59,955 bases of DNA from Streptomyces hainanensis (GTDB lineage Bacteria; Actinomycetota; Actinomycetes; Streptomycetales; Streptomycetaceae). Under the pieces are notes generated by a model. It worked only from the letters and a program-made list of their open reading frames with translations. It did no database searches and was not told the origin of the DNA. Of this stretch, positions 2,408 through 52,581 are shown in pieces. The position numbers and the translations under genes are program-made. Each line of letters starts with the position of its first letter. Within the stretch, counting starts at the first letter, position 1. The DNA is taken from contig NZ_SMKI01000001.1 in the NCBI RefSeq assembly GCF_004348415.1, positions 1 through 59,955 on the forward strand. Direction: 5' to 3'.

Positions 2408-3570
2408 ACCTCGAACCCACCTCGGTTGATGGCGGGCCTGGCCCGCCGGCGTAGCGGTCCTGGCCGGATACCTATTGTGAACCTGCCTGGGTTGATGACG
2501 GACGCAGTATCGCGACCGGCATCATGCAGCGCCGGATCGCGTTGCGAACCCTCCGGGGTTGATGACGGACCCCGGATTGGCGGTGCGTAGCGTCTCCTCG
2601 GCGAACGGGTGTTGCGAACCCTCCGGGGTTGATGACGGACACGGCGCCAACACCCCCAAGGAGACCAGCTCATGACGTTGCGAACCCTCCGGGGTTGATG
2701 ACGGACCCACGGTGTTCTGGTCGCGGGCGCCGTCGAGGTGCAGTTGCGAACCCTCCGGGGTTGATGACGGACAGCGGCCGGCCGCCGAGTACGTCGCGGC
2801 GGCGCTGGGTTGCGAACCCTCCGAGGTTGATGACGGACTCCTCATCGAGGGCCCGCTGGCCCTGCCGCCCGGGTTGCGAACCCTCCGGGGTTGATGACGG
2901 ACCGGAGAGGCGGCGGGGCGGCGACGAGCTCGAGGTCGTGTTGCGAACCCTCCGGGGTTGATGACGGACCCGCTCCTTGGGGCTCAGCCGGAGTTCGTCC
3001 TCCGCCTGTTGCGAACCCTCCGGGGTTGATGACGGACCGAGGATCCGGACCGGACGATGTGTGAGTGGTGCGGGTTGCGAACCCTCCGGGGTTGATGACG
3101 GACTTGCGGATCAGGTGCAGGTCAAGGGCGAGCAGTACCAGTTGCGAACCCTCCGGGGTTGATGACGGACACAGACCCGCCCGCCCGTCGGCTCCGTCGA
3201 CCAACCGACGTTGCGAACCCTCCGGGGTTGATGACGGACCTCCACGCGCGCCCTGCGGGCCTTGCCCCGCACGTGTTGCGAACCCTCCGGGGTTGATGAC
3301 GGACTTTCACCGCCGGTTCGAGACCGGCGGGTCAAGCAACTGTTGCGAACTCTCCGGGGTTGATGACGGACCGTCTGGTTCGAGAGCGACCACCCGGCCA
3401 GGACCGCGTTGCGAACCCTCCGGGGTTGATGACGGACACGCCAAGGCCGTGGCCCGCGCGATGGCAGCGCTCGAGTTGCGAACCCTCCGGGGTTGATGAC
3501 GGACGTCGGCGGCGAGGACGACCCCGGGGAAGCTGCCCGCGTTGCGAACCCTCCGGGGTTGATGACGGAC
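2408..3570 (-). CRISPR. CRISPR array 1 (18 repeats, 17 spacers)
   Basis: Repeats of 30 bases, written on the plus strand, start GTTGCGAACC and end TTGATGACGGAC, with the core CTCCGGGG. Repeat starts are 2408, 2474, 2541, 2611, 2677, 2743, 2809, 2873, 2940, 3008, 3074, 3141, 3210, 3275, 3342, 3408, 3475 and 3541, giving spacers of 34-40 bases. The first two repeats are degenerate and carry a CACCTCGG or TGCCTGGG core like arrays 2 and 3. Decay at the left end and the shared leader at the right end show that transcription runs leftward. On that strand the repeat has an AACCC/GGGTT hairpin followed by TTCGCAAC, the likely crRNA 5-prime handle left by Cas6. Confidence 0.98.
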
Positions 3571-4292: not shown

Positions 4293-7200
4293 TCACCTCA
4301 CCCTCACGAGGTACCGGTCTCCGTCCGCGAGGCCGGCGTTCTCGTAGAACTGTCCAAGCGCGTTTCCGTGGCTGGAGTTTACCGAGTGTGGGCTGAGAGT
4401 GAGGGTCGCGCCGGCGCCGCCCTCGTAGGTGCTGGCGAATGGGTACTCCTCCCAGGTGCCGTCCGAGGCGAACCTTCGGGGACGGGGGCGTCCGGCCTGG
4501 GCCTGTCGTCTGACCGACCGTGCTTGCCGCTCGGTCAGTTGGCGATAGGTCACCAGGGCCGGTGCCCCGTTCTCCGTGGCGCGGAGGAAGTTGCTGGCCT
4601 GTGGTCCCCATCGGGTCGAGTCGATGACGTGGACGGGAAGTGATTCGGCGACGCCGGCGGAGTTGACCGCGAACTCCCGTGGGACGTGAGCGGCGAGGCC
4701 GAAGGGGTCGCACCACAGCAGGGGGTTGTGCGGGTACGTCCACGGGTTCGGGGCTGGCAGCAGGCCCAGGGGGTCCTGAGTGACGTACCGCCCGGTGGTC
4801 GGGTCGTAGTGGCGGAAGTAGTTGTAGTGCCAGCCGGTCTCGTCATCGATGTACTGGCCCGGAAAGCCGAGGGGGGCCGGTACGGCGTCGTCGTCGGGGC
4901 CTGCTCGGAGGCCCCACAGGCTGGTGCCCGCCGTCCAGGCCGCCGTGCCCCGCTCGTCGACGAGTTCGACGGGGCTGCCGACGAGGTCGGTGACGATCGC
5001 GAAGAAGCGTCGGTCGATCTCGTCCTGGCCGGAAACATGGTGGGACTGGGTGAGGGGTTGGGCCTCGTGGTGGTTCCAGGTGATCGTGGCACCGGCAGTG
5101 GTCTGCTCGACCAGCTCACCGTCGTGCCACGTGAACCACACCTCGTCAAGGATCGTGCCGTCCTCGGGGCGGACCTGGCGCTTGGCCACGCGGCGGCCGA
5201 AGGGGTCGTAGAGGTAGCGCCAGACGCTGCCGTCAGGGGTGGTGGTCTCGGTGAGCTGGTTCCGTGCGTTCCAGGCGTAGCGCCAGGTGTCGGGCTTGCG
5301 GGAGAGGCGGGTCACCTGGCGGCGCGTCGGTCGGCCGGCGGCGTCATGGGAGTAGCGGGTGCCGCCGGCGCGGGTCAACAGGGTCCCGGCGTAGTCGCGT
5401 TCGCCCTCGGCCGGGGTCCCCGTCGCGGTCCAGCGCGCGCTGGTCTGGTTGCCGGCGAGGTCGTAGGCGTAGGTCTCGTGCCGGCCGGAGGAGTGGGTGA
5501 CGGCGGTCGGCCGGCCGACGGGATCGAGGGCGAAGGTGCTGGTGGTACCGGTCCGGTGGTCGGTGACGGCGGTCGGGTAGTGGTCCTGGCGGTAGGCATA
5601 GCTGCGCCCGCTCAGGACTCGTCCCGTGGGGTCGGAGAGGGCGTGCTGCTCGAGTGCGCCGGCTCCGTTCCACTGGTGGGTGAGGGTGAGGTGTTCGCCG
5701 ATGTGGCGGGCGATCTCGCGCCCGGTGGGGTCGTGGTCGAAGGTGATGGTGCGGCCGTCGGTGCTGAGGGTCGCGGGCCGGCCGTTGGGGGCGTGGGTCC
5801 AGGTGCTGGTGTGACCGGCCGGGGTGCGGCGGGCGAGGAGCTGCCCCTCGGAGTCATGGGTGAGGGTCAGGGTGCGTCCGTTGACGGTTTCGCTGACGAG
5901 GTTGCCGAGGGTGTCGTGGACGCGGCTCAGCTCGACGCCCGGCGAGGTCGCGGAGACGACGCGGCCCATCGGGTCGTGGACGTAGGCGCAGGTGTCGCCG
6001 TCGGAGGTGGTCGTGGCGGTGAGCCGGCCGAGCGGATCGTAGGAGCACGACACGGTCTCGCCGGCGGGGCCGGTGAGTTCGGTGAGCTGGCCGACGGCGT
6101 TGCGTCGGTAGGTGGTCTCGCGGCCGTCGAAGTCCGTCTCGGAGGCGAGACGGCCGGTGGCGTCGAAGGTGTAGGTCCAGGTGGCGCCGAGGGCGTTGGT
6201 GACCTGGACGAGGTTGAGTTCCGTGTCCCGTGTGAGGCGGTGCGTGGCGCCGTCGGGCGTCGTGTAGGAGGTGAGCAGGTCGAACGGGCCGTAGGTGTGG
6301 CTGGTCTCGGCGCCCCTGGCGTCGGTGTGGGTGAGGAGGTTGTCCTCGCCGTCCCAGGTGAAGACGTCGGCGGCTCCGGTGGGGTCGGTGCGGCGCAGCA
6401 GCCTGCCCTCGACCGACCAGGTGAACGTCGTCTCCGCGCCGTTGGGGTCGGTCAGGCGTGAGGGACGTCCGAAGGAGTCGCGGACGACGGCGGTGCCGCC
6501 ACCGAGGGGGTCGGTGACCTCCAACGGCAGCCCGGCGGCGTCGCAGCGCACGTGGGCGGTGTGGCCAAGGGTGTTGGTGACGGAGGTGATGCCGCCGTGC
6601 GCGTCGTAGGTGAAGTGGGTGCGCCGGCCGGCCGGGTCCAGGATGGCGACGACGTTTCCGCGGGCGTCGTACGCGCGGCTCCAGGTGCCGCCGTCCGGGT
6701 GGACGACGGTGCTGGGCAGTCCGAACTCGTTGTACTCGGTGCGCTGGCTGCTGCCGTCGGGGCGGATGACGGCGACGAGGTTGTCCTGCGGGTCGTAGTC
6801 GTAGCGGGTGGTGTGGCCGAGCGGGTCGGTGACGGAGAGCAGGTCGTGGTACTCGGTCCACTCCTTCCGCGTGACGTGTCCCAACGCGTCTGTCTCAGCG
6901 ACCAGTTGGAAGAAGTCGTTGTACTCGTAGGTCGTCGGGTGCCCGAGGCTGTTGGTGGCGGTGGTGCGCTGGAGCTCGGGCTCGTAGTGGTAGCGGTAGG
7001 CGAGGACGCCGTCTGTGCCCGTGGTGAACACGCACCGGCCGCCCTCGTCGTACTCGTACCGGTACCAGGTGCCGTTGCGGTCCTCCCAGCGGGTGATCCG
7101 GCGCTCGTGGTCGTACTCGTAACGCAGCGGCAGGCCAGAGGAGTTGTAGACGCCGGCGAGGTTGCCCGCCGTGTCGTACGCGAAGGCGCGCAGGAGCGGC

Positions 7201-8771
7201 CGGTCGGGATCGTTGAGCAGGGTGAGGGCGGTGACGCGGCCTTCGCGGACCGCGACGCCGATCCGGTAGCCGCCGGAGTGGGCCACCTCGGTCGGGGCAC
7301 CGTGCTCGTCGTAGACGAAGGTGATCCGGTTGTCGTTGCGATCGGTGATCGCGGTGATCGGCAGTTCGGTGCCCGGCCGGCCGGGGACAGGGGCGAAGTG
7401 GAGTGTCAGGCCCGTGTCTCGTTGGCGGATGGTGAGTTCACCGGCGTGGCGACCGTCCCAGGACAGGCCCCAGCGCGGTCCCTCGACCGGCATCACCGGC
7501 CGGTCGGGCTCCTTGCGCGGCACCGGGTAGTGGAGGCACATCCCGTCGTCGGCGTAGTAGTCCACGCCGTAGTCGTCGAGCACGAGCCGCTGGTCGAGGG
7601 TGGAGGCCCAGGACGGGCCGAACCAGCGGCCGGCACGGTGGGTGCTGAGGTGTTCCCTGGCGAGGGCCAGTGGGAGGACGCCGGGGAGCTCGACGTCGGT
7701 CTCGCGCAGGGTCATCTCGCCGGTGATGACGTCGATCGGGTCGCCGATCAGGACCCGGCCGATGCCGCGGATGCCCTGCTGGCGGAACATCGGGCCGAGA
7801 TTCCTGAAGTTGGCGGCGTACCGCCTGATGCCGGTGGCCAGGCCCGCGGCGGTGGTGAGGCCCTTCAGCCCCGGGATGCAGTCGAGGGCGGCGAACGCGA
7901 CGTCCCACAGGGTCGCCTCGCCGTTGGCGTAGCGATAGAGGGTGTCGGCGAGGACGACCAGGGCGGCGGCGACGACGACCCAGGCCAGGGGGCCACCGAT
8001 GATCAGGACGACGATGCCGAGGACGGCGACGACGACCTTGCATACCTCGACGATGGTGTCCCAGTTCTCGGACACCCAGTGGACCGCGTCCTCCCACCAA
8101 CTCCGGTTCTGAATACCGGCGTCGGACGCTTCGTCGATGTCGCGGGCGGCCTGACCCGCGGCCTCCTCCCGCATCTCGCGGGCCTGCTCGGCCAACTCCC
8201 GCGCGGCGGACAGCCGCTGTTCGGCGTCGTCCACCCGGGCCTGTGCCGCCGAGGCGGCCTCGCCGGCGGCGTTCGCGTCGCGGGTGGCCGCCCGCACCTC
8301 GGCCTCGGACGGCGGTTCGACCTCGTCGTGTTCGCCCTCGCGCTCCAGGCGCTCGGCCTCCTCGCCGGCCCGGGACACCCAGTCCTGGGCGTCGGACAGC
8401 GCACCTTGCGCGGAGCCGAGGTCGGCCTGCGCGGCGATGGCCCGGTCGAGGGCCCGATCCGCCATGCCCTGGGCCGTCTCGAGCTTGGGCCAGTACGTCT
8501 GGAGTGCCTGCGCGCATAACGCGTACGATGTCTCCAGCTTCTCCAGATTGCCGGGGACGCCATCGAACTCGCTGCGGAAGGCATCTGCCGACAACCCCGC
8601 CCAGTCCTGCACGGCACGGTCGCTGGCCATCCCCCGAACCCGACCGAGCGCCTCACCGACATCGTCGGCGAAGGTCTGTAAGTCGTCGGCCAGGGACCTG
8701 ACCTCTTCGGGATCCCCTGGCGTCGGATCGGAGTCCATGCCTACGGGACTCCAGTCAGTCGGTCGCATCAT
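4293..8771 (-). CDS. Rhs/YD-repeat polymorphic toxin with NucA/NucB-type nuclease tip
   Basis: A 1,492-residue protein. Residues ~1-220 form a WXG100-like, Ala-rich coiled-coil segment; ~240-275 are two hydrophobic membrane segments; ~340-410 match the DUF6531 entry domain (GDPIDVITGEMTLRETDV); ~480-1250 hold many YD repeats of the Y-D-x-x-G-R type that build the Rhs cocoon. The Rhs core ends near residue 1327 with YDPTTGRYVTQDPLGLL and DPFGLA. The last ~130 residues are the variable toxin: EEYPFASTYEGG (~1440) and SVNSSHGNALGQFY (~1463) match the NucA/NucB deoxyribonuclease core, whose acidic residue and His/Asn coordinate metal. The WXG-like N-terminus suggests type VII-like export. The immunity gene follows directly. 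Start at the double ATG behind a G-rich ribosome binding site. Confidence 0.9.
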   Translation of the reverse strand: MMRPTDWSPVGMDSDPTPGDPEEVRSLADDLQTFADDVGEALGRVRGMASDRAVQDWAGLSADAFRSEFDGVPGNLEKLETSYALCAQALQTYWPKLETAQGMADRALDRAIAAQADLGSAQGALSDAQDWVSRAGEEAERLEREGEHDEVEPPSEAEVRAATRDANAAGEAASAAQARVDDAEQRLSAARELAEQAREMREEAAGQAARDIDEASDAGIQNRSWWEDAVHWVSENWDTIVEVCKVVVAVLGIVVLIIGGPLAWVVVAAALVVLADTLYRYANGEATLWDVAFAALDCIPGLKGLTTAAGLATGIRRYAANFRNLGPMFRQQGIRGIGRVLIGDPIDVITGEMTLRETDVELPGVLPLALAREHLSTHRAGRWFGPSWASTLDQRLVLDDYGVDYYADDGMCLHYPVPRKEPDRPVMPVEGPRWGLSWDGRHAGELTIRQRDTGLTLHFAPVPGRPGTELPITAITDRNDNRITFVYDEHGAPTEVAHSGGYRIGVAVREGRVTALTLLNDPDRPLLRAFAYDTAGNLAGVYNSSGLPLRYEYDHERRITRWEDRNGTWYRYEYDEGGRCVFTTGTDGVLAYRYHYEPELQRTTATNSLGHPTTYEYNDFFQLVAETDALGHVTRKEWTEYHDLLSVTDPLGHTTRYDYDPQDNLVAVIRPDGSSQRTEYNEFGLPSTVVHPDGGTWSRAYDARGNVVAILDPAGRRTHFTYDAHGGITSVTNTLGHTAHVRCDAAGLPLEVTDPLGGGTAVVRDSFGRPSRLTDPNGAETTFTWSVEGRLLRRTDPTGAADVFTWDGEDNLLTHTDARGAETSHTYGPFDLLTSYTTPDGATHRLTRDTELNLVQVTNALGATWTYTFDATGRLASETDFDGRETTYRRNAVGQLTELTGPAGETVSCSYDPLGRLTATTTSDGDTCAYVHDPMGRVVSATSPGVELSRVHDTLGNLVSETVNGRTLTLTHDSEGQLLARRTPAGHTSTWTHAPNGRPATLSTDGRTITFDHDPTGREIARHIGEHLTLTHQWNGAGALEQHALSDPTGRVLSGRSYAYRQDHYPTAVTDHRTGTTSTFALDPVGRPTAVTHSSGRHETYAYDLAGNQTSARWTATGTPAEGERDYAGTLLTRAGGTRYSHDAAGRPTRRQVTRLSRKPDTWRYAWNARNQLTETTTPDGSVWRYLYDPFGRRVAKRQVRPEDGTILDEVWFTWHDGELVEQTTAGATITWNHHEAQPLTQSHHVSGQDEIDRRFFAIVTDLVGSPVELVDERGTAAWTAGTSLWGLRAGPDDDAVPAPLGFPGQYIDDETGWHYNYFRHYDPTTGRYVTQDPLGLLPAPNPWTYPHNPLLWCDPFGLAAHVPREFAVNSAGVAESLPVHVIDSTRWGPQASNFLRATENGAPALVTYRQLTERQARSVRRQAQAGRPRPRRFASDGTWEEYPFASTYEGGAGATLTLSPHSVNSSHGNALGQFYENAGLADGDRYLVRVR

Positions 8772-9043
8772 CTCGTTCGCCCCCCCCGGGCTTCCGCAGT
8801 GACGATCAGATCGTGCTGACTACGCGTCATTGACCATAGATGGGCCGGTTTTGCAGTTCAACAGTCGTGAAGATCGAAATTCCCGCGTTGTCCGACCGGT
8901 GGGCATGGATTCTGCGACGCGCCTGCTCGCCGGTTGTCGGACTGGCGTCCTCCCGCAGGCGGCTCAGCCACCATGTGATGAGTGCGGCTTCTAGCGGCTG
9001 CCGCTTGCGTGGGGACTGACGGGGCTGCTTGCGGGGGGCGTGG

Positions 9044-9073
9044 GCTTTTGCGCCCCCTGGGTTGATGACGGAC
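9044..9073 (+). repeat. solitary CRISPR repeat remnant
   Basis: Positions 9056-9073 read CCTGGGTTGATGACGGAC, identical to the 3-prime 18 bases of the array 2/3 repeat on the plus strand; a TTGCG just to the left may be the rest of the repeat with a small internal deletion. There is no second repeat at the expected ~66-base spacing on either side and no leader. The right edge of the repeat is also the point where the CHAT-like reading frame begins, so this is a rearrangement scar rather than an array. The 8772-9043 stretch on its left holds no convincing gene. Confidence 0.8.
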
Positions 9074-9441
9074 ACCTCACGGACATCGTCGGCGGCGGCG
9101 CGTTCGCCCGGGCCATGGCTGCCGTGGATGAGAAGCCGCTGCTCGTCGTGCTGAATTCCTGCCACTCCGCCGCCCAAGCCGAACGCCTCGTCGAGACCGT
9201 CCCGTTCGCCATCGGCATGGCCGAGTCCATCGGCGACGTCGACGCCATCACCTACGCCGCGCGGTTCTACGCCGCCATCGCCGAAGGGCAATCCGTGCAG
9301 GGAGCCCACCTGCTGGGTCGGGCGGCGGTCGAGATGAACGGGCTGCCGGACCACGAGGTCCCCACCCTCACCTGCGCCCTGGACGTCGACCCCAGCGCGA
9401 CGCGGTTGGTGACGCCGCCGGCGACTTCGGAGATCGCGTAG
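9074..9441 (+). pseudogene. C-terminal stump of a CHAT (caspase-like) protease gene
   Basis: About 120 codons match the C-terminal half of a CHAT/caspase-like domain: KPLLVVLNSCHSAAQAERL carries the catalytic Cys (NSC), followed by FAIGMAESIGDVDAITYAARFYAAIAEGQSVQGAHL, the typical ending in which an active-site loop is followed by the FY-x-x-L/I helix. The half holding the catalytic His is missing. The frame can be read from a GTG at 9040 but that would translate the CRISPR repeat remnant, so the gene is judged truncated. CHAT proteases act in bacterial defence and cell-death systems, but this copy cannot be active. Confidence 0.7.
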
Positions 9442-9453
9442 CGCACCCGACGG

Positions 9454-9966
9454 TCAGCGGAACCGTCGGGTGTACGCGGCGAGGTCGTGTTGCTCGAAGT
9501 GCTGCAGGTTCCAGTCGGTGGGTAGGACGTCCGCGTCGATCGTCCAGAGGTAGGCCATGGCGTGGCTGCCGCTGGCCAGGGTGACTGGGCTGAGTTCGTA
9601 GGGCTGGCCCTCGAAGTCGTCCAGTACCCGCCACTCGGCCGGCGTGAGGTCGCTCAGCACGGCGCCTGCGGCGGCGCCCGGGCCGGGAACGAGCCCGGGG
9701 TAGACGCGGCCGGCGAGGTTGGCGGCGCGCCAACCCGGTGCGGAGTCAGGGACGCCGCGGGGCGTCCGACCTATGAGCCCACGCAGGACGGGCGCGCAAC
9801 GCAGCGTGCCGTAAACGAACAACTCCGTGGGCACTTCGCCAAGTGCCCTCACACGGTCATACCGACCTGACGGTGTGGCGTCGGCCTGGCTGGGCTGGTT
9901 GGGCACGAGTTCGCTCCTTCGTGACGACGCGTGCTGGCCAGCGGGGACAGGGGCATTGGGCCTCAT
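9454..9966 (-). CDS. gamma-glutamylcyclotransferase (AIG2)-like protein
   Basis: A 170-residue protein with the family's opening strand ELFVYGTLRCAPVLRGLIG (YGTLR binds the substrate) and the acidic catalytic motif in LDDFEGQPYELSPV, where the Glu acts as general acid/base. Members release 5-oxoproline from gamma-glutamyl peptides or amines. The first ~45 residues are outside the conserved fold, and the true start may be further in, just ahead of VPTELFVYG. It converges with the CHAT stump and has no clear operon partner. Confidence 0.72.
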   Translation of the reverse strand: MRPNAPVPAGQHASSRRSELVPNQPSQADATPSGRYDRVRALGEVPTELFVYGTLRCAPVLRGLIGRTPRGVPDSAPGWRAANLAGRVYPGLVPGPGAAAGAVLSDLTPAEWRVLDDFEGQPYELSPVTLASGSHAMAYLWTIDADVLPTDWNLQHFEQHDLAAYTRRFR

Positions 9967-10108
9967 TGCGCCGCCGGCCTTTCTCCACCGGCCCCGCGCA
10001 TGTCGACGGGACGCCCGACACGAGCACTGTCTACCCGGCTGAGCGATGCTTCGCGCCAGTAGGCGAGGCGACGGTGTGCTGGCTTCTCGTGCCGGGGAGA
10101 CAGCGGGT

Positions 10109-10720
10109 ATGTCCCTGGACCTCTTCGGTTACGAGGCTCTGATCTTCGACTTCGACGGCACGCTCGTTGATTCGCAACCGCTGAACCATCGTGCCCTGGT
10201 TGCTGCCCTGAGCGGGCACGGCGTCACCGTCGCCTGGGAGTGGTACGCCCAGCGGCTTGGCACCTCCGGCCTCGATCTGCTGGCGCAGCTCGGCGTCTCC
10301 CAGGAGGTCGCCGTGGAGGTGATCGAGGTGTGGAGCGAGCTGATCATCCGCGAGGCCGCGACACTGCGGCCCCACCTGACGGTGGTGGGCTGGGCCGAGG
10401 AATCGCGTCGAGCTGGTCTCCGATGTGCTGTCGCCTCCGGAGGCGGCGGACCCGTCGTGCGAGCCGGGTTGGCTGCCACGGGACTGGCTGACCTGTTCGA
10501 TGTCGTGGTGACCCGGGAGGCGGCGGCGAGGGGCAAGCCCGCGCCTGACCTGTTCCTGCTCGCCGCCAGCCGGCTGGGCGTTCTCCCGAGCCGGTGTCTC
10601 GTCCTGGAGGACGCGGACGAAGGGCTCGCCGCGGCGCGGGCCGCCGGGATGGACGCCATCGATGTCCGGGCTTGGGTGGGCGACCTCCCGCACGAGACCG
10701 GTGATCGTCCCGTCGCGTGA
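10109..10720 (+). CDS. HAD-superfamily hydrolase (phosphatase)
   Basis: A 203-residue HAD subfamily IA protein. The four motifs are present: DFDGTLVDS with the nucleophile Asp and acid Asp, CAVASGGGG with the Ser of motif II, a Lys in GKPAPDLFL, and LVLEDADEGLAAARAAG with the Mg-binding acidic pair. The cap domain lies between motifs I and II. It is likely a small-molecule phosphatase of the phosphoglycolate phosphatase/beta-phosphoglucomutase type; the substrate is not predictable. Start chosen at ATG 10109 behind GGGGAGA; the frame runs open further upstream but without family sequence. The D-amino-acid oxidase follows after 25 bases and may share its transcript. Confidence 0.85.
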   Translation: MSLDLFGYEALIFDFDGTLVDSQPLNHRALVAALSGHGVTVAWEWYAQRLGTSGLDLLAQLGVSQEVAVEVIEVWSELIIREAATLRPHLTVVGWAEESRRAGLRCAVASGGGGPVVRAGLAATGLADLFDVVVTREAAARGKPAPDLFLLAASRLGVLPSRCLVLEDADEGLAAARAAGMDAIDVRAWVGDLPHETGDRPVA

Positions 10721-12351: not shown

Positions 12352-12537
12352 TCAGTCCTCGTATATCGGTGTGAGGAAGTATCGGAAGCCGGCTCGCTCC
12401 CCGGGCAGTTCCCGGACGCGTTCTGCTACGGCGGTCGTGCTGCGCTCGGGCTGGGCGTCCGAGCGGTCAGGTTGTGCAGCGTGCCCGGTCGTTATGGGGT
12501 GGCACTCTCTTGAGGGTGCGTCGCCTGTGCCGTTAGC
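12352..12537 (-). pseudogene. gene fragment (C-terminus) against CRISPR array 2
   Basis: On the minus strand an open frame with no start codon runs from the trailer end of array 2 to a TGA at 12352-12354 and ends AERVRELPGERAGFRYFLTPIYED, which has the look of a genuine C-terminus. Upstream the frame ends at a stop inside the degenerate first repeat. It looks like a gene whose 5-prime part was removed when the array region was rearranged. Family not recognised; a chance frame cannot be excluded. Confidence 0.3.
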
Positions 12538-13024
12538 TCACCTGGGTTGATGACGGACCCCCGCCCCGGGGCACGAGGACAGCCCGGCGCCAGCGTTGCG
12601 AACCCACCTGGGTTGATGACGGACCCACCGCATCGCGGAGGCTCTGGTGGTGTCGCCAGCGTTGCGAACCCACCTGGGTTGATGACGGACTGGGCAGGTC
12701 CCATCCCGTGGTGGGGATGAGGATGTGGTTGCGAACCCACCTGGGTTGATGACGGACCGGTCGGCGCGGCTGTATCCCGTGCGGTGGTGGCCGCGTTGCG
12801 AACCCACCTGGGTTGATGACGGACCGGCACTGCCCTTGATGCGCGACATCGCAGCTCAGTGGTTGCGAACCCACCTGGGTTGATGACGGACAGGCCAGCC
12901 GGCGGGCCGACCCCTGCCAGCCCTCCCCGTTGCGAACCCACCTGGGTTGATGACGGACCCGCTGGGACCCCGAATCGTCCGGGCGAGTGGTCATGTTGCG
13001 AACCCACCTGGGTTGATGACGGAC
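12529..13024 (-). CRISPR. CRISPR array 2 (8 repeats, 7 spacers)
   Basis: Repeats of 30 bases with core CACCTGGG in place of CTCCGGGG. Repeat starts are 12529 (degenerate left part), 12595, 12661, 12729, 12795, 12862, 12929 and 12995, giving spacers of 36-38 bases. The decayed repeat is at the left, the leader at the right, so transcription is leftward as in array 1. This variant makes a longer perfect stem (AACCCA/TGGGTT with a GG loop) than the array 1/4 variant. It lies ~28 kb from the cas genes. Confidence 0.98.
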
Positions 13025-13366: not shown

Positions 13367-13571
13367 TAAGTGTTGCCATCTTGCGTGATCCGCATCGGCT
13401 TGGAATGCTGGCGCCGGCGGGTGGTCGTGCGGCTGCCGGCGTCAGCGACTCGGTTCGTCTGGTCATGCGTCGTACGCACTCTCCCGATGCCACCACGTCG
13501 GCGAGCCTGCTGTCGACGCGATGCATCGACGACTCCACGCGCCGCCCACGCAGTCAGGAGCGGAGACAACG

Positions 13572-14756
13572 ATGACTTCACACCAGATTGACCGGCGGGA
13601 CCTCCTGCGATACTCGGCCGTCGGAGGCATTGCTCTTGCGCACATCGCGCCTGGCCCCTTCGATGCCAACGCACGCGCTGTTGGTGACGCACCCTCGCCA
13701 ACTCCGAGGATTCCAAGGCACTACGGCGTCGTCTACGACGTCGGCCTGAGATTCAGCCCGGAGAGCCTGTCCGTCGACCCCTTCGACGCGGCGCTCGCCG
13801 AGTACGACATCAACACGATCGCGAACGAACTCCATGCCAACGCGGTCCGTATCGAGGGTGAGGTGATCGATCGGCTCTCGGTCACAGCGAGAATCGCCCA
13901 CGCGGCCGGGCTGACTGTCTACTTCAATCCGTGGAAGATGAACGCGGGCATCGATGAGACCAGGCGGTATGTCGGGCGGGCGGCGCGAGTCGCCGAGCGG
14001 CTGCGGCGCGAGGGCGTGGACATCGTCTTCGTCGTCGGGTGCGAGCTCACGATCTTCACCGACGGCATCTACCCTGGCTCTTCGTACATGGAGCGGGGGA
14101 TGTGGCTCGCGGAGCAGTTGCGACTCGGGAACACCTCGCTCCTGGCGGAAAAGGCCGAGCTTCTGAACGAGACGTTGCACAGCTACGTCGAGACCGTCCG
14201 GGCGCGCTTCGGCGGCCTCGTGACGTACGCGTCCGGGCTTTGGGAGGACGTCGATTGGGGCGCCTTCGACGTTGTCGGACTCGATGCCTATCGTGACCGT
14301 CAGACCGAGGAAGAGTACGTCGAGATCTTCGAGCGTCATCGGGTGCACGGCAAGCCGGTCGCCACCACGGAATTCGGGGCGTGCAAGTACGTGGGTGCCG
14401 GTGCGCTTGGCGCGGGTGGATTCGCCGTCCTGCAGGGTGCGAACGCGGACGGCACGGGTATCTGGGAAGGCGGCGTTGCCCCGACGCGCAGTGAAACAGA
14501 GCAGGCCGATTACATCGAGACGCAGGCTGGTCTGATGACGGACGCCGGAGTCGACGCGCTCCTTGTGTTCGAGTTCTCGAAGCCGGCCTTGCCGACCGGC
14601 GAGGGAGCGAAGGACCTGGACATGGCCTCCTTCGCGATCGTGAGCACCTTTCCTGCTGAGGACCCGCGGTCACAGCAGATGCCGCCATGGAAGCGCACGG
14701 AGGGATTCCGGCGCGTATCCGAGATCTTCGCCAGGTTCGCCAGCCGGGGCTTGTAG
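13572..14756 (+). CDS. Tat-exported TIM-barrel glycosidase-like protein (paralogue 1)
   Basis: A 394-residue protein. Residues 1-45 are a twin-arginine signal (DRRDLLRYSAVGGIALAH), so this copy should act outside the cytoplasm, unlike its three paralogues here. The mature part opens with HYGVVYDVGLRF and has HANAVRIEGE early. Two glutamates sit where clan GH-A glycosidases carry acid/base and nucleophile: E158 in GCELTIF after a strand, and E267 in TTEFGACKY. Similar proteins are, as far as I recall, often labelled 'abortive infection protein' in databases without evidence. The context (GH2 enzyme, sugar-acid enzymes, importer) favours glycoside cleavage. It stands first in the island, behind an ATTTGAAAT motif, and may release substrate for uptake. 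Function is inferred from fold and residues. Confidence 0.7.
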   Translation: MTSHQIDRRDLLRYSAVGGIALAHIAPGPFDANARAVGDAPSPTPRIPRHYGVVYDVGLRFSPESLSVDPFDAALAEYDINTIANELHANAVRIEGEVIDRLSVTARIAHAAGLTVYFNPWKMNAGIDETRRYVGRAARVAERLRREGVDIVFVVGCELTIFTDGIYPGSSYMERGMWLAEQLRLGNTSLLAEKAELLNETLHSYVETVRARFGGLVTYASGLWEDVDWGAFDVVGLDAYRDRQTEEEYVEIFERHRVHGKPVATTEFGACKYVGAGALGAGGFAVLQGANADGTGIWEGGVAPTRSETEQADYIETQAGLMTDAGVDALLVFEFSKPALPTGEGAKDLDMASFAIVSTFPAEDPRSQQMPPWKRTEGFRRVSEIFARFASRGL

Positions 14757-19670: not shown

Positions 19671-20747
19671 GTGAGGGTGAAGTACTACGGAGTTGTCTAC
19701 GACGTCGGCTTTCGCGTGCTCGGGGAGGATCCGTCGTCGGTCGAACCCTTCGTGCCGGAGGTGGTCCGCAACGACATGCGGATCATCGCCGAGGAACTGC
19801 ACGCCAACGCGGTGCGGATCGAGGGCGAGAACATCGAGCGGCTGCTGATCGCGAGCCGGGCGGCCCTTGACGCGGGACTCGCGATCTTCTTCTCGCCGTG
19901 GAAGATGAACGTCGACCTCGAGACCTCAAAGGAGTACATCGCCGAGGCGGCCGCCGTGGCCGAGCAACTCCGCCAGGACGGCGCGGACATCGTGTTCGTC
20001 ACCAACTGCGAGTACTCGATCTTCTGCGACGGCGTGTACCCCGGCTCGAACATCTTCGAGCGCAGCGCGTGGGCGAAGGGCTTTTTCGAGGGCGGGGCGC
20101 TGCCGCTGACGCCGGAGGGGCTGCACAGCGATCTCGACGCCCCACACCGGCGGCTCAACGAGGCCCTTCGTGAACTCGCCGGCACCGTGCGGGAGTCGTT
20201 CCACGGCCCGGTGACCTACTCCGCCGCGTCGTTCGAAGACGTCGACTGGACCATCTTCGACCTCACAGGACCGAACTTCTACCGTGAGCGCCAGAACGAC
20301 GAGGAGTACCTCGCCGGGCTCGAGTACTACCGCTCTTTCGGCAACCCGGTGACCGTGCCGGAGTTCGGATGCTGCACCTACGTCGGCGCGGCGGACCTGG
20401 GCGCCCGAGGCTGGCGGGTCGTGAAGGACGTACTTCCCGACGGCACCGGTGTGTGGGTGGACGACGTCGTGCCGACGCGCAGCGAGCAGGAACAGGCCGA
20501 CTACATCGAGCGCCAGCTCACCTTCTTCGAGGAGCACGACGTTCACGCGGCGTTCGTGTTCATCTTCTCGCAGATCTCCCGACCTGGCGGCGAAGGGCCG
20601 CGGGACCTCGACCTGGGTTCCTACTCACTCGTGCGGTTCTACCCGCCCGAGGATCCGCGGTCGCTGGGTACCCAGCCGTGGCAGCGCAAGGAGTCCTTTC
20701 ACCGGGTGGCCGAGATGTTCCAGAAGCTGGGCGCCGCGAGCGACTGA
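19671..20747 (+). CDS. TIM-barrel glycosidase-like protein (paralogue 2)
   Basis: A 358-residue cytosolic paralogue without signal peptide. It opens MRVKYYGVVYDVGFRVLGED and keeps HANAVRIEGE. The candidate acid/base is E114 in TNCEYSIFCDGVYPG, the nucleophile E231 in VPEFGCCTYVGA. A third conserved block is DVDWTIFDLTGPNFYRE. It groups with the copy at 38934 (FRVLGE and EFGCC) rather than with copies 1 and 3. GTG 19671 follows AGAAAGG; GTG 19677 is an alternative that would match the MKY start of the others. Being cytosolic and beside a lactonase and SDR, it likely cleaves an imported, perhaps already oxidised, glycoside. Reaction not demonstrated. Confidence 0.7.
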   Translation: MRVKYYGVVYDVGFRVLGEDPSSVEPFVPEVVRNDMRIIAEELHANAVRIEGENIERLLIASRAALDAGLAIFFSPWKMNVDLETSKEYIAEAAAVAEQLRQDGADIVFVTNCEYSIFCDGVYPGSNIFERSAWAKGFFEGGALPLTPEGLHSDLDAPHRRLNEALRELAGTVRESFHGPVTYSAASFEDVDWTIFDLTGPNFYRERQNDEEYLAGLEYYRSFGNPVTVPEFGCCTYVGAADLGARGWRVVKDVLPDGTGVWVDDVVPTRSEQEQADYIERQLTFFEEHDVHAAFVFIFSQISRPGGEGPRDLDLGSYSLVRFYPPEDPRSLGTQPWQRKESFHRVAEMFQKLGAASD

Positions 20748-37979: not shown

Positions 37980-38872
37980 TGGACATGCCTGAGCTCACGG
38001 TGATCAAGACCGGCCTTGCCTTTCCGGAAGGACCGCGCTGGTACGACGGCTGCCTGTACTTCTCCGACATGTACGGGCGGGAGGTGTTCCGCTACCGCGA
38101 CGGCATCGGTGTGGAACCGGTGGGTGCGGTGCCCGAACGGCCGTCCGGGCTCGCCCGGGACGCGAACGGCGACCTGCTCGTCTCGTCGATGCTGGATCGG
38201 CGGATCGTCCGTTTCCGCGATGGCGAGTTGGAGACCTTCGCCGACCTGCGGGGGCTGTGCCCCGGCCCGGTCAACGACATGGTCGAGGACGGCCACGGCG
38301 GGGTCTACGTGGGCAACTTCGGGTTCGATTCCGAGTCGCCCGACGAGGTCATGGCCCCGACGCGCCTGGTGCACGTGAACGCCGACGGTCACGCCACCCA
38401 GGTGGGCGACCCGATCATGTTCCCCAACGGATCCGTGGTCACCGACGGTGGCGCGACACTGCTGGTCGCCGAGACCTTCGACTGCCGGATCCTCGCCTTC
38501 GACATCGCCGACGACGGCTCGCTCGGCAATCGCCGCAACTGGGCCGTGTTCCACGAGATGCGGACCGAACACGACCTCGAGGAGGCGCTCGGCAGCGGCT
38601 CGATCCTGCCGGACGGCATCTGCCTCGACCGGGAAGGAGCGCTCTGGATCGCCGACGCCGGCGGCCAGGGCGCGGTGCGGGTCGCGCGGGGCGGAAAGAT
38701 CCTCGACCGTGTTCCGGCACCGGAGGGGCAGGCCGTGTTCGCCGTCGCGCTCGGCGGCGACCAGGGCGACACCTTGTTCCTGTGCGTCGGGCCCGCGATG
38801 GGGAGCGCCGACCTCACGGCCACGACGCTCGGCAGCCTCGTCTCGTGCCGCGTCGACGTGCCGCGGGCATGA
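37979..38872 (+). CDS. SMP-30/gluconolactonase-type lactonase (paralogue of 17932)
   Basis: A 297-residue beta-propeller lactonase. TGLAFPEGPRWYDGCLYFSDMYGREVFRY gives the first metal Glu; GPVNDMVEDGHGGVYVGNFGF gives Asn; MFPNGSVVTDGGATLLVAETF and LPDGICLDREGALWIADAGG give Asn and Asp. All four divalent-metal ligands of the family are therefore represented. It probably hydrolyses an aldonolactone formed by the coupled SDR. The second lactonase of the island, so two sugars or two anomeric lactones may be handled. Confidence 0.87.
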   Translation: MDMPELTVIKTGLAFPEGPRWYDGCLYFSDMYGREVFRYRDGIGVEPVGAVPERPSGLARDANGDLLVSSMLDRRIVRFRDGELETFADLRGLCPGPVNDMVEDGHGGVYVGNFGFDSESPDEVMAPTRLVHVNADGHATQVGDPIMFPNGSVVTDGGATLLVAETFDCRILAFDIADDGSLGNRRNWAVFHEMRTEHDLEEALGSGSILPDGICLDREGALWIADAGGQGAVRVARGGKILDRVPAPEGQAVFAVALGGDQGDTLFLCVGPAMGSADLTATTLGSLVSCRVDVPRA

Positions 38873-38933
38873 GAACGCACTTCAGCAGAACATCCGTCGT
38901 CACGGGGCGAACACAGAGAGGAACATCCACGAC

Positions 38934-40013
38934 ATGAAGTACTTCGGCGTCGTCTACGACATCGGATACCGGGTGCTCGGTGAAGGCGACTCGTCGGTCG
39001 AGCCGTTCGACCCGGAGCTCGCGCGCTACGATATGAACGTTATCGCGGCCGACCTGCGGGCGAACGCGGTGCGGATCGAGGGCGAGGATCTGGAACGACT
39101 GGAGATCGCCAGTCGGGCCGCACTCGACGCGGGCCTGGCGATCTGGTTCTCGCCGTGGAAGATGAACGTCGACTTCGACGCCACGACGGAGTACCTGGTC
39201 AAGGCGTCGAAGATCGCGGAACGTCTGGCGCGGGACGGCGGCGACGTCGTCTTCATCGTGTCGTGCGAGTACAGCATCTTCTCCGACGGGGTGTACCCGG
39301 GGAACAACATCTTCGAGCGCAGTGCGTGGGTGAAGCAGCACTTCGGGGCGATCGAGTGGCCGAACACCCCGGCCGGTCTACCTGAGCCACTCCCACAGAA
39401 GGCGGGGATCCTCAACCAGTACCTGAAGTCGTTCCGGGACACGGTGCGGGAGCACTTCTCCGGGCCGGTGACCTACTCGGCCGCCATCTTCGAAGAGGTC
39501 GACTGGACGCTGTTCGACTACGCCGGTCCGAACTACTACCGCGAGACCCAGAGCGACGAGGAGTACGCGGCCGGATTCGAGTACTTCCGCACCTTCGGCA
39601 GGCCCATCGCGATCCCGGAGTTCGGCTGCTGTACGTACGCCGGCGCCGCCGATCGTGGCGCACGCGGCTGGCGCCTGCTCCAGGAGCAGTTCCCGGACGG
39701 GTCCATCAAGTGGCAGAACGACGACGTACCGGCGCGGTCGGAAACCGAGCAGGCGGACTATGCCGAGCGCCAGCTCCGGTTCTTCCACGACCAGGGCGTC
39801 GAGGCCGCGTTCATCTTCCAGTACAACGCGCCGGCCTACGTACACGACCAGGGGCCGCGCGACGCCGACCTCGGTTCGTACGGCATGGTGAAGTTCCCGC
39901 CGCGTGGCGACGCCAGGTGGCAGCAGATGCCGCCGTGGGAACCCAAGGAGGTCTACCACCGCGCGGCGAAGCTCTTCCGCGAGCTGCGCGAGACCGCGGA
40001 GAACGGGAAGTAG
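38934..40013 (+). CDS. TIM-barrel glycosidase-like protein (paralogue 4)
   Basis: A 359-residue cytosolic paralogue, closest to copy 2. It opens MKYFGVVYDIGYRVLGEG and keeps RANAVRIEGE. The candidate acid/base is E112 in VSCEYSIFSDGVYPG and the nucleophile E229 in IPEFGCCTYAGA; EVDWTLFDYAGPNYYRE is the third block. It ends the run SDR-lactonase-TIM barrel. The matching gene set around copy 2 suggests an old duplication of the module. No signal peptide. Reaction not demonstrated. Confidence 0.7.
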   Translation: MKYFGVVYDIGYRVLGEGDSSVEPFDPELARYDMNVIAADLRANAVRIEGEDLERLEIASRAALDAGLAIWFSPWKMNVDFDATTEYLVKASKIAERLARDGGDVVFIVSCEYSIFSDGVYPGNNIFERSAWVKQHFGAIEWPNTPAGLPEPLPQKAGILNQYLKSFRDTVREHFSGPVTYSAAIFEEVDWTLFDYAGPNYYRETQSDEEYAAGFEYFRTFGRPIAIPEFGCCTYAGAADRGARGWRLLQEQFPDGSIKWQNDDVPARSETEQADYAERQLRFFHDQGVEAAFIFQYNAPAYVHDQGPRDADLGSYGMVKFPPRGDARWQQMPPWEPKEVYHRAAKLFRELRETAENGK

Positions 40014-40470: not shown

Positions 40471-41506
40471 ACCTTGAGCCCGCCAGAGTTGATGACGGAT
40501 TCGAGTCGCCGCCGCAGGTCCTCGCCGCCGACGCCGTCACGTTGCGAACCCACCCGAGTTGATGACGGACCCCAGCCTGCCGGACCCGGCCCTCGGCTGG
40601 CGAGTGTTGTGAACCCACCTGGGTTGATGACAGACGCCTTGACCGCCGCTGGAAGCAGGCCCGCACGCTGGCGTTGCGAACCCACCTCGGTTGATGACGG
40701 ACGGACGTCGCGGCGACCTGTACGCGGGTGCGGTCGTGTTGCGAACCCACCTGGGTTGATGACGGACCGTAGGAGGTGGCGACCGTGCCGTTCTCGTGGC
40801 ACACGTTGCGAACCCACCTGGGTTGATGACGGACCCGCCTCTTGTACCGTCAGTTCGCGCGCCAGCCGGTGTTGCGAACCCACCTGGGTTGATGACGGAC
40901 GCGCACTGAAGAACTCCGATTGGTGGCGCGAGAATAGGTTGCGAACCCACCTGGGTTGATGACGGACCCCGAACACTGCGTCGGTATCAACCCGCTTGCA
41001 CGGCCGTTGCGAACCCACCTGGGTTGATGACGGACACCTGTTGGGGGCCGCCCCGTCCGCGACGGTCGCGGGTTGCGAACCCACCTGGGTTGATGACGGA
41101 CCGTCCATGGCCGAGCCGGCGGCCGAGGTGAGCCGCTGTTGCGAACCCACCTGGGTTGATGACGGACCTGTTCTTGACGTAGGCAACCCGAAGATCCCCC
41201 TGCCAATGTTGCGAACCCACCTGGGTTGATGACGGACTGGGCTACATGGCGCTGCTGCGGAACCTGCGGAACTTGTTGCGAACCCACCTGGGTTGATGAC
41301 GGACGTCCGGGGGCGCCACCAGGGAGGGACAGCACATGAGGTTGCGAACCCACCTGGGTTGATGACGGACCCGCGCCGCGAGCGCCTGGAGCTCCTGGCC
41401 GAACTCCTGTTGCGAACCCACCTGGGTTGATGACGGACCCGCATGGTCCTGCACCAGCAGCAGGCCGACGAACCCCGTTGCGAACCCACCTGGGTTGATG
41501 ACGGAC
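40471..41506 (-). CRISPR. CRISPR array 3 (16 repeats, 15 spacers)
   Basis: Repeat starts 40471, 40541, 40606, 40673, 40738, 40805, 40871, 40938, 41006, 41072, 41138, 41208, 41275, 41341, 41409 and 41477. The core is CACCTGGG as in array 2. The leftmost four repeats carry changes (CGCCAGAG, CACCCGAG, a GTTGTG start with CAGAC end, CACCTCGG), the rest are uniform. Spacers are 35-40 bases. Leader and cas6 lie to the right, so array and cas operon are divergently transcribed. Confidence 0.98.
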
Positions 41507-41862: not shown

Positions 41863-42552
41863 ATGCGGATCAGGGTGGACGTGGAGACGGATGCCGCGAG
41901 CCTGCGTTGGGAGGACGTGCACGGTCCGGCGCGTGGGGTGGTGTACGCGTTGCTCGGGAGTGAGGACGCGGACATGGCGCGCTCGTTGCACGACAACGGG
42001 TGGAAGGGGCATCCGCTCAAACCGCTCGGGCTGACGAGTCCGCAGTTTCGTGGTGCTCGGCCGGTGGACGGCGTCTACACCACATCCCGCGACGGGGCGA
42101 TCTGGTTCGGCTCGCCCGTCCCGGAGATCGCCTCGGTGCTCGTGAAGTCGTTGGCCTCGCGGACGGAGATCGTGTGGGGGAGTACCCGGTTAAAGGTCCG
42201 CGGCTTCCAGCTCGACTTCGGAGCTACCCCGCAGGGCAAACTCGTTGAGCTCGCGACTGCCACTCCCGTCATCCTCAAGCGAGAGAACCGGTTCCTCCTG
42301 CCGGGGGAGCCGCACTTCATGGAGTGCCTGGAGCGCAACCTGGCCCACAAGGCGGATGTGCTCGGCCTTCCCGCCCCGCGTTCCGTCCAGCTTCTCGAGG
42401 CGGGGCCGCGACGACGATTCACCGTGCGGGGGGCGCCCCGGCACGGGGCGCAGGTGCGCGTCGCCATGGAGGCGGACGGTCGGTTCGTCGGGGCGCTGCG
42501 CTCGTGGGGCCTCGGTTTGGACACCATCCAGGGCTTCGGATGGATCCGATGA
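41863..42552 (+). CDS. cas6: Cas6 CRISPR RNA endonuclease
   Basis: A 229-residue RAMP protein that cuts the repeat hairpin of the precursor CRISPR RNA. The C-terminal Gly-rich loop GLGLDTIQGFGWI is the Cas6 signature. The catalytic His is probably in HDNGWKGHPLKPLG near residue 45-55. A ferredoxin-like start (MRIRVDVETDAA) fits. ATG 41863 was chosen at the start of the first strand. First gene of an eight-gene operon whose members all overlap or abut. Confidence 0.85.
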   Translation: MRIRVDVETDAASLRWEDVHGPARGVVYALLGSEDADMARSLHDNGWKGHPLKPLGLTSPQFRGARPVDGVYTTSRDGAIWFGSPVPEIASVLVKSLASRTEIVWGSTRLKVRGFQLDFGATPQGKLVELATATPVILKRENRFLLPGEPHFMECLERNLAHKADVLGLPAPRSVQLLEAGPRRRFTVRGAPRHGAQVRVAMEADGRFVGALRSWGLGLDTIQGFGWIR

Positions 42553-43991
42553 GCAGCGTCACCGCCACCGATGCCGTTCTCGTCGCCACCGGGCACCCGC
42601 TCCAGCGGGCCGGCGCGTGGGCCGTCGCGGTGCTGGCTGAGCAGCCGAGTCCGGGCGATGTCACCGACCAGCACCTTGACGATGTCGCCCAACGCCTGGT
42701 GGACGATGTCTGCGCCGCCGCGACGGCACCCAGCGACAGCGACGCCTACGACTGGTGGAAGGTGCTGTTCGCCCTCTACCCGAACTCCAAGGCCACCCAC
42801 AGCAAGAGGTCCAGGCTGCGCCGCGACCTCGAGCCGGAGATCGCCGCCCTCTTCGCCCGCGACGAGCCCCGCGGGACGGCCGTGAAGGCGTACCCCTGCA
42901 CCTTCTGCGGGACGCCCGCCACAACGCTCTGGACGAAGTCGAACCTGCCGATGTTCGACACCAACAAGGCATTGAACACGCTGCCCGCGGCCGTCGCCGG
43001 GTGGCCGGCGTGTCGGGGCTGTCGGATCGCGGCGTGGGCGCTGCCCTACGGGGCCTGGGTGACGGCCGGCTCGGCGACCGTGCTGTCGTGTGAGACCGAG
43101 GCCGCCGAGCGTCGTTTCGCCGAGCGGAACGTGTTGCGGGCCCGCCGTGTCATGCAGCTCGGGTTCGGCAAGCTGCGGGTGGGCTCACGCCCCGAGCTGG
43201 TCGCCCTGAACGCCCTCCGCTACGCGGACGTGGAGCTGGCGGCCACGACCCTGTGGAGCTTCAAGAACGACAATCAGGAGCCGTGGCTCCGCGTCACGCA
43301 CGCCCGCCGCGCGGTGCCCCGGTTCCTCGCCATCGTGCAGGGCAACGCCCCGCTGCGCCGCGGCTGGCGGCTGCTTGAGGTGGCGCTCACCCAGCGGGAC
43401 GCCGACGGCGCCGTCGTCAGGAGCGGCCCGGCCGAGGCGGCGCGCCTGCTGTTCGAGTCCGAGGACGGCGACGGCCGGTCGCTGCTGGTCCAGCTGAACC
43501 GGGTGCTGGGAGATCCGGACCGCCGTCTGCCCTTGCGCCACCGGGTCGACGCGACCCGACTCGCCTTCACCTACGCCAAGGAGATCTTGGGCATGGAACC
43601 GGATCTGACGCCGGTGGCGACCATGGTCGCCGACTGGATCGAGCACGGCGGTGGCGGCCCCCGTGGCCGCTGGGCCGAGTTCGAGAGCGCGCACCTGCGC
43701 CCGCACCAACTGGGCCAGGTACTGGACCTGGCCAAGCGCCGGCTGTACGCCACCGGCCGCGAGGTGCCCTGTACCGAGGACGACTGGCGGCCGTTCATCC
43801 TCAACCGCCCCGGCGGCTGGGCGCAGCGGATGCTGCTGAGCATGGCCGTGGTCCGCATCCTCCAGGAGCGGGGCGTCGCGGTCAGCCAGGCGCCGGCGGA
43901 CCCGAACGAGGAAGCGCGGGTGGAGCAGCTGTTGAGCCAACCGATGCTCAGCAGCCAAGAGGACGACGACTACCTGATGGGAGCGGTGTGA
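42549..43991 (+). CDS. cas8b: Cas8b1/Cst1-like large subunit of the type I-B Cascade
   Basis: A 480-residue protein with a zinc-finger-like motif CTFCG...CRGC (~residues 117-158), as in the Cst1/Cas8 proteins of the Tneap-type I-B systems. Its place between cas6 and cas7 is that of the large subunit, which recognises the PAM and recruits Cas3. Sequence in this family is very variable, so the call leans on position, size and the Cys motif. ATG overlaps the cas6 stop. Confidence 0.75.
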   Translation: MSSVTATDAVLVATGHPLQRAGAWAVAVLAEQPSPGDVTDQHLDDVAQRLVDDVCAAATAPSDSDAYDWWKVLFALYPNSKATHSKRSRLRRDLEPEIAALFARDEPRGTAVKAYPCTFCGTPATTLWTKSNLPMFDTNKALNTLPAAVAGWPACRGCRIAAWALPYGAWVTAGSATVLSCETEAAERRFAERNVLRARRVMQLGFGKLRVGSRPELVALNALRYADVELAATTLWSFKNDNQEPWLRVTHARRAVPRFLAIVQGNAPLRRGWRLLEVALTQRDADGAVVRSGPAEAARLLFESEDGDGRSLLVQLNRVLGDPDRRLPLRHRVDATRLAFTYAKEILGMEPDLTPVATMVADWIEHGGGGPRGRWAEFESAHLRPHQLGQVLDLAKRRLYATGREVPCTEDDWRPFILNRPGGWAQRMLLSMAVVRILQERGVAVSQAPADPNEEARVEQLLSQPMLSSQEDDDYLMGAV

Positions 43992-45049
43992 TGGCGTATC
44001 TCGCGGGCAAGATGGTGCTCTCGGTGCGGGCCGGCGCCCCCAACAACGGGAAGGGGGAGGCGACGACGGCCCGGGTGAAGCGCGCCCGGGTGCGCGGCGC
44101 CTCGTACCCGTACATCTCGGCCCAGGCGGTGCGCCGTTGGACCCGGGAGAGCATGGTCGAGCTGGGCGCGGTCCCGTCTCCCGTCACCCGGATCGGGAAG
44201 TCGCAGAACAAGGCGCAGAAGGCGAACACCGCGGCCGATCCGGTGCGGTACGCCGACGACGACCTGTTCGGCTACATGAAGGCCGGGTCAAGCAAGGACA
44301 ACGCGGCGACCACCCTCCGGGACAGCCCCTTCATGATGGGCACCCTGATGGCGGTCGAACCCGCCTTCCCCACCGAGGACTACGGGGTCATGGCCCGGGG
44401 CGTGATCGAGCCCGTCCTGCACGGCCACGAGTTCTACACCGCCGACCTCGCCGCCCCCTTCCTCCTTGACCTGCCGCACATCGGCACCTTCACGCTGCCC
44501 GACGACGCCGGGGTGGGTCGCCCCAACTACCTGACCAAGGAACAGGCGCTGCAGGTCGCCGAGGCCGCCGCCCTTGGCGCGACGACCGCCACCTTCCGCG
44601 ACCGGCCGGCCGTCCGTCTCCCGATCGAGGAGCGGCGAAAGCGCGCCGCGCTGCTGCTGGAGGCGCTGGCCCAGCTGAGCGGCGGGGCGAAGCAGGCCCT
44701 GCACTACGGCGACCGCGTTCCCGACCTCGTCATCCTGGTGCCGTTCAAGGGCGGCATCAATCCGCTGGCGCACTGCGTCGACGGCGAGCCCGGCGTGGGG
44801 CTGCGGGTGCGCGGCGACGTGCTCCGCAAGGAGTTGGAGGCGTGGGCGGGGGAGTGGGAGGCGCCGGTGCGGATCGGCTGGCGGCCGGGCTTTCGCGACG
44901 AGGTGCGGCATGCCTTCGAGAAGCAGTGCGCGCGTGAGCTGGAGGCCGGCACCATGGTCATCGAGCACCCGCGCACCGTCCTCCGCGGTCTGGCCTCCGA
45001 GATCCGCGACGGCAAGCTGGACGACTGGTTCGACGACCCCCGCCGATGA
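43991..45049 (+). CDS. cas7: Cas7 (Cst2/DevR-type) backbone subunit
   Basis: A 352-residue Cas7-family RAMP. The N-terminal strand LAGKMVLSVRAGAPNNGKG and the ARVRGASYPYISAQAVRRWTRES block, in which the Arg-rich loop contacts crRNA, match Cst2/DevR. The Y-G-V-M-A-R-G segment and C-terminal acidic tail fit. Several copies coat the crRNA in Cascade. ATG 43991 overlaps the cas8 stop; a GTG one codon earlier is possible. Confidence 0.88.
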   Translation: MAYLAGKMVLSVRAGAPNNGKGEATTARVKRARVRGASYPYISAQAVRRWTRESMVELGAVPSPVTRIGKSQNKAQKANTAADPVRYADDDLFGYMKAGSSKDNAATTLRDSPFMMGTLMAVEPAFPTEDYGVMARGVIEPVLHGHEFYTADLAAPFLLDLPHIGTFTLPDDAGVGRPNYLTKEQALQVAEAAALGATTATFRDRPAVRLPIEERRKRAALLLEALAQLSGGAKQALHYGDRVPDLVILVPFKGGINPLAHCVDGEPGVGLRVRGDVLRKELEAWAGEWEAPVRIGWRPGFRDEVRHAFEKQCARELEAGTMVIEHPRTVLRGLASEIRDGKLDDWFDDPRR

Positions 45050-52525: not shown

Positions 52526-52581
52526 GAGCGCAGGTTAGAGCGGTGGCGGACGATTGTGGACGTGTCGGCTTTTGCCCGCAG

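Follow-up and report, generated by a model that had tools for sequence, protein, structure and literature searches.

A solitary CRISPR repeat beside a beheaded CHAT-domain gene in Streptomyces hainanensis: probably a plain rearrangement scar

Decay of the leader-distal end, including the partial deletion of repeats, has been described for CRISPR arrays (PMC4869251), and both CreA guides (PMC8501985) and viral solitary repeats (PMC10651486) are on record. The locus considered here lies in a stretch of 59,955 nucleotides from Streptomyces hainanensis, hereafter the window; its contig, C111, belongs to a draft assembly of 951 contigs and 8.0 Mb. It resembles the degenerate leader-distal repeats of decayed arrays in holding an apparently worn repeat with a small deletion, as seen at the old ends of arrays 1–4 of the same window, but this repeat has no adjoining spacer–repeat unit or leader and stands beside a gene fragment. 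It also resembles the pseudo-CRISPR guides of CreTA, since in both cases a lone, degenerate repeat lies near a toxin gene in a genome with a type I system, but there is no second repeat and no guide–target seed above chance. Among the titles listed by the literature searches, none concerns a repeat joined to a CHAT fragment.

The gene fragment is related to the CHAT proteases, represented here by PDB 8tl0, a CHAT domain-containing protein that we take to be SAVED-CHAT, and by the TPR-CHAT protein of Craspase. In caspase-like CHAT proteases, the His and Cys of two short motifs are the catalytic residues. Full-length relatives of the window gene encode proteins of about 353–357 residues, and one of them (G127; 357 residues) shows 89% DNA identity to the window over 358 bases. 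Residues 168–314 of the G127 protein match chain A of 8tl0 (E 6.5e-10), with HFSGH (216–220) aligned to HFIGH and LNSC (Cys 265) to LNAC. This relative therefore shares the CHAT domain with its His and Cys motifs, whereas the N-terminus of the family looks, by eye, like a coiled region instead of SAVED or TPR. The window copy differs further in having no His half: only the 3' third of the gene is present (9086–9441, + strand), running from about residue 240 to the stop, and it begins after the HFSGH residues. The Cys motif is retained as LNSCHSA, which aligns to LNAC of 8tl0 by way of G127. An earlier reading made from the sequence alone (the sequence-only reading) had described this gene as beheaded, with the catalytic His half missing, and that description holds. 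The missing 5' part, which that reading proposed to look for elsewhere in the genome, was found neither across the assembly nor on the other side of the repeat (best E 1.49).

The fragment forms the larger part of a predicted open frame of 133 residues (9040–9441, + strand, GTG start), which also spans the repeat and the junction. Pfam returned no family for the fragment and none above the cut-off for the G127 CHAT protein, and the PADLOC SAVED_CHAT model gave only E 0.011. Between the fragment and G127, dN/dS is 0.056/0.27; the window branch carries 4 nonsynonymous and 5 synonymous codon changes against 3 and 3, with no sign of relaxed decay, so that the gene was probably truncated only recently when measured against the divergence from G127.

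The assembly holds five CRISPR arrays of one repeat family, four of them in the window and on the − strand: array 1 (2408–3570; 18 repeats), array 2 (12529–13024; 8 repeats), array 3 (40471–41506; 16 repeats) and array 4 (50012–50641; 10 repeats, the second-oldest at 50077–50106). Array 5 is on contig C777 (30429–30721). A block of about 55–100 bases beyond the last repeat on the right is common to all five, and the left-end repeats are degenerate in arrays 1–4, at 2408, 2474, 40471 and 50012, while the terminal repeat of array 2 at 12529 keeps only about its last 19–20 bases, much like the solitary repeat; the leftmost repeat of array 5 differs too, in its first half. The leader would therefore lie on the right and the oldest repeats on the left, which in array 1 are the degenerate pair at 2408 and 2474. 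Three repeat variants occur across the arrays, namely ACCTGGG, TCCGGGG and ACCAGGG. A set of type I cas genes (42324–49662, + strand) stands between arrays 3 and 4 and encodes a large protein with no Pfam match, Cas7, Cas5, Cas3 and Cas1; the Cas7 call rests on a DevR-family match 0.1 bit under the cut-off.

At 9056–9073 on the + strand, the 18 bases CCTGGGTTGATGACGGAC reproduce exactly the last 18 bases of this repeat, and the repeats closest to it on either side are those of array 1, which ends at 3570, and array 2, which begins at 12529, so that the element had rightly been reported as having no partner. It does not form an array in the sense of at least two repeats with spacer-length DNA between them, and its identity with the repeat family is exact over these 18 bases. 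Chance is not a good account of it. With up to 3 mismatches, the repeat pattern occurs 54 times in the window against a mean of 0.12 in shuffles, and its 15-base core GGGTTGATGACGGAC has 52 exact copies in the 8.0 Mb assembly, namely 51 in the five arrays and the solitary one. Allowing one mismatch raises the number of sites to 57, of which 55 are in the arrays, one is the solitary copy at 9059 and one, on contig C157 with a single mismatch, is the sole other near match outside the arrays; the reversed pattern, used as a control, gave no match.

The element had been taken for an 18-base repeat end, and this stands only as the ungapped view. The element agrees with the second-oldest repeat in array 4 (50086–50106) at 21 of 21 bases (9053–9073), as it does with no other repeat, and a 3-base gap lets TTGCG (9048–9052) join, giving about 26 bases, although the added 5' part on its own reaches only p ~0.03 (0.038 of windows, 0.028 of shuffles). 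The feature at 9048–9073 is thus best described as 21 exact bases and probably TTGCG, with a 3-base internal deletion between them, and this alignment suggests that a whole repeat has been worn down here, not just that an 18-base end was left. The donor repeat is not certain because array 3 also offers a close match, the longest near match of all, in which a repeat and four spacer bases (41015–41039) agree at 24 of 25 positions, including ACCT past the repeat.

A joint of this kind could be an artefact, and a chimera in a draft of 951 contigs might be suspected. However, the joint lies 9 kb inside a contig stretch and the shared word is only 18–26 bases, shorter than the usual assembly overlaps, and we consider such an error very unlikely. 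When the 392 genomes of the genus sample were searched for the junction itself, allowing up to 3 mismatches, it was recovered in the source genome alone.

The 18 bases might also be native CHAT sequence that resembles a repeat by coincidence, and the frame is indeed open through them. The sequence-only reading had named an intact relative with this 18-mer in its frame as the observation that would overturn it, and the comparison went in its favour. The 13-base tail GTTGATGACGGAC has no exact copy in the 27 records of 26 relatives (loci of 8–20 kb), where two isolated copies with one mismatch occur at whole-gene loci (G216 and G528) and copies with two mismatches are scattered; the 18 repeat positions agree with ten relatives at 6–8 of 18; and outside the arrays the 8.0 Mb hold only the one other near match. 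In addition, the repeat-encoded codons GTT and GAT end in T, although the third positions of this frame are 89% GC. A native origin is accordingly hard to credit, and these comparisons support the view that repeat-derived sequence adjoins a beheaded CHAT gene whose His half is gone.

The 26 relatives comprise 18 genomes, 7 plasmid loci and 1 further locus, with two Streptomyces clavuligerus records counted as one. They exclude more distant CHAT homologues, short matches with E above ~1e-13, the second copies that G049 and G528 carry at the opposite end of the chromosome, the 52 of 62 plasmid records beyond the nine best together with a third record from S. clavuligerus, and the other five of the six loci among which the single extra locus was found. 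In 19 of the 26 the protein is nearly whole, with no internal stop ahead of its natural end; G118 is counted here on a tblastn match without an internal stop despite "1 TAG" in one listing, and G049 is full length, yet has lost both motifs. The other seven are broken. One carries a frameshift (G171), four start late, at residue 142 (S. clavuligerus), 239 (G016), 263 (G236) and 282 (G602), one retains residues 262–306 only (G311), and in G490 the gene is split between residues 224 and 225 by an IS110-family element. This element, at L149 4231–5560, sits directly after the HFSGH motif. None of the seven broken loci has the GTTGATGACGGAC tail at 0–1 mismatch, and breakage of the CHAT gene therefore requires no CRISPR repeat.

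The position of the joint bears on how it arose. The CHAT homology had been said to start directly after the repeat, with the repeat end as the breakpoint, but alignment with the ten relatives whose gene spans the joint shows the first statement to be inaccurate and lends no support to the second. By blastn, homology starts at 9081–9088 in 9 of the 10 and at 9103 in the tenth; overall, its start is put about 8–12 bases downstream of the repeat edge. In a two-state change-point model, a start at 9075–9090 takes 67–99.7% of the weight for nine of ten relatives but 39% for G049, with the model leaning further right in G049 and partly also in G127 and the TSRI0281 locus. A start exactly at 9074 receives 0.0–0.7% in all ten, and a start inside the repeat 12% in one relative and 0–2.4% in nine. 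Since the 12 positions after the repeat agree with the relatives at only 4–6 of 12, like the repeat positions themselves, the fusion lies off the repeat edge. Between the two lie 8–12 bases, within 9074–9085 (+ strand), that are not repeat and not clearly CHAT either (G127 is identical at 4 of 12); they could be filler or what is left of the oldest spacer.

Microhomology might nevertheless have supplied the breakpoint, if GTTGATGAC in the repeat, read as VDD, had recombined with GTCGACGAC in the CHAT gene, which encodes VDD in G127. Read without gaps, the VDD encoded by the repeat and the His that follows it fall opposite VDD-F-H of G127, and tblastn reaches 9061. At the DNA level, however, the agreement across the repeat is about that of chance, and a joint made in this way should give good homology at once, which the following 12 bases do not; we regard this route as unlikely.

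The proposal that the joint is of Cas1 type, in which strand transfer or disintegration by Cas1–Cas2 used the repeat end and destroyed the gene, gains something from the Cas1 gene within the window and from the intact spacer-side edge of the repeat. However, 8–12 unmatched bases separate that edge from the gene, and off-target integration by Cas1–Cas2 is expected to leave a repeat-like duplication or target on both sides, whereas the site holds a single repeat copy and the rest of the assembly no CHAT 5' sequence. Cas1 joining at the repeat end is disfavoured, with very little probability left to it. A variant in which a repeat end served the adaptation machinery to join the chromosome, with loss of most of the CHAT gene and the 8–12 bases left as filler, is likewise very improbable; were it true, a CRISPR-driven self-rearrangement would have removed a possible cell-death gene.

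The reading that we prefer, and hold to be moderately probable, is that the solitary repeat is a relic of the old end of a lost array, joined to the CHAT gene by ordinary deletion or rearrangement. The element would be what remains of the leader-distal, oldest repeat of an array that once stood at the locus; an ordinary deletion or other illegitimate rearrangement would have taken the rest of the array and the first two thirds of the CHAT gene; and the remnant would have been joined to the gene about 8–12 bases past the repeat, within the former oldest spacer. We favour this because the core is nearly unique outside the arrays and the terminal repeats of the window are eroded, because the only 21/21 match of the element is an old-end repeat of array 4, and because homology begins at 9081–9088 in nine of ten relatives while the N-terminal part of the gene is absent from the assembly. 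The seven breaks without a repeat tail within 1 mismatch and the finding of the junction in a single genome speak for the same reading, as does a possible further relic in the window, a trailer-flank copy with no array at 52566–52736. We infer that the donor array used to stand at this locus and that it was lost by deletion. Both parts now seem to be non-functional, the repeat having neither spacer unit nor leader and the CHAT piece neither N-terminal part nor catalytic His, and the whole configuration has the appearance of a plain rearrangement scar, not of a novel mechanism. Array ends can, it would seem, decay to single repeats that come to precede unrelated gene fragments. Before a solitary repeat is given a mechanistic reading, it should therefore be matched to its repeat family with gaps allowed, and the change point of the adjoining gene should be tested on intact relatives.

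Several observations count against a lost array. Neither a leader (arrays 1, 2 and 5) nor a conserved trailer flank (arrays 1, 3 and 5) matches near the solitary repeat at E 0.01, the leaders of arrays 1, 2 and 5 matching at arrays only; no relative examined has the CHAT gene beside such a repeat (loci of 8–20 kb); and a 12-base stub is too short to be recognised as a spacer. The 84 bases upstream of the repeat were compared with the trailer flanks of all five arrays. When the alignment was anchored at the end, the array 3 score was attained in 9 of 1000 shuffles and in 3 of 1000 windows, and those of arrays 1, 2, 4 and 5 by 198–623 of 1000 shuffles. A local test allowing long gaps gave 10, 20 and 28 of 1000 windows for arrays 3, 1 and 5 (83–142 of 1000 shuffles), and ordinary local alignment of the same flanks gave nothing significant. 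The likeness of this flank to array trailers is at most suggestive.

Eleven relative loci share with the window the CHAT gene only, and the 2.8 kb downstream, searched in 61 genomes, found matches in 15 (the source genome included), at gene level only. The 47 spacers in the window have no 14-mer match to the CHAT gene of G127 or to the window fragment; against the window, a single 16-mer was found, shared in reverse complement by an array 3 spacer and position 3504 in array 1.

Where the genome has a type I CRISPR system and a toxin gene adjoins a lone repeat, the idea also arises that the repeat is functional, giving a CreA-like regulatory crRNA or an anti-CRISPR RNA near the Rhs toxin gene. 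CreTA guides are partly complementary to a nearby promoter. Here, the longest match of the putative guide in 7500–9000 is 8 bases, a length that 281 of 300 random 38-mers equal or exceed, and the single 9-base match in 7500–10500, at 9776, lies within another gene. The pseudo-guide was rejected on this null-level match length. In addition, the repeat has probably lost three bases in its 5'-handle part, and 8000–10500 has no Rfam match up to E 1; a functional guide is most improbable.

The toxin gene in question (4293–8771, − strand) encodes an Rhs polymorphic toxin with a T7SS signal and a C-terminal NucA/NucB DNase, and is oriented divergently to the CHAT fragment. Headless copies that begin inside the CHAT domain number five (the window, G016, G236, G602 and G311), and four of them have a polymorphic toxin or immunity gene no more than about 2.5 kb away: the Rhs gene with NucA/NucB in the window (4293–9441, with SUKH genes further off at 815–1961), a Tox-REase-2 toxin in G016 (L128), SUKH genes in G236 (L105) and a NucA/NucB protein in G602 (L153). 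Toxin and immunity queries from the window and G016 matched at none of the 19 whole and none of the 3 other broken copies at E 0.001; Pfam was run on some neighbours of some of these copies, and the neighbours in G127 include an AbiEii-type protein. The background in five genomes is 4–7 SUKH and 0–2 NucA/NucB genes per genome. The pattern was noticed post hoc and two of its four cases supplied the queries, so that a tendency of headless CHAT copies to adjoin such genes is offered as a lead only.

Finally, arrays 1, 3 and 5 have about 300 leader-distal bases in common, with a conserved small ORF of 28 residues (MNTSxQIGPxGxKLLPLQVV...). Copies of this segment are located at 2121, 40199 and 52582 in the window and at 30142 on C777. 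The fourth of them (52566–52736) stands without an array, upstream of a serine recombinase gene, and is possibly another relic in the window. The most diverged copy has changed mainly at synonymous sites (dN 0.11–0.13, dS 0.95–1.2). Three genes with no Pfam match (13521–14756, 19671–20747 and 38448–40013) have DNA repeats of 62–73% in common with one another, the first lying near array 2 and the last near array 3.
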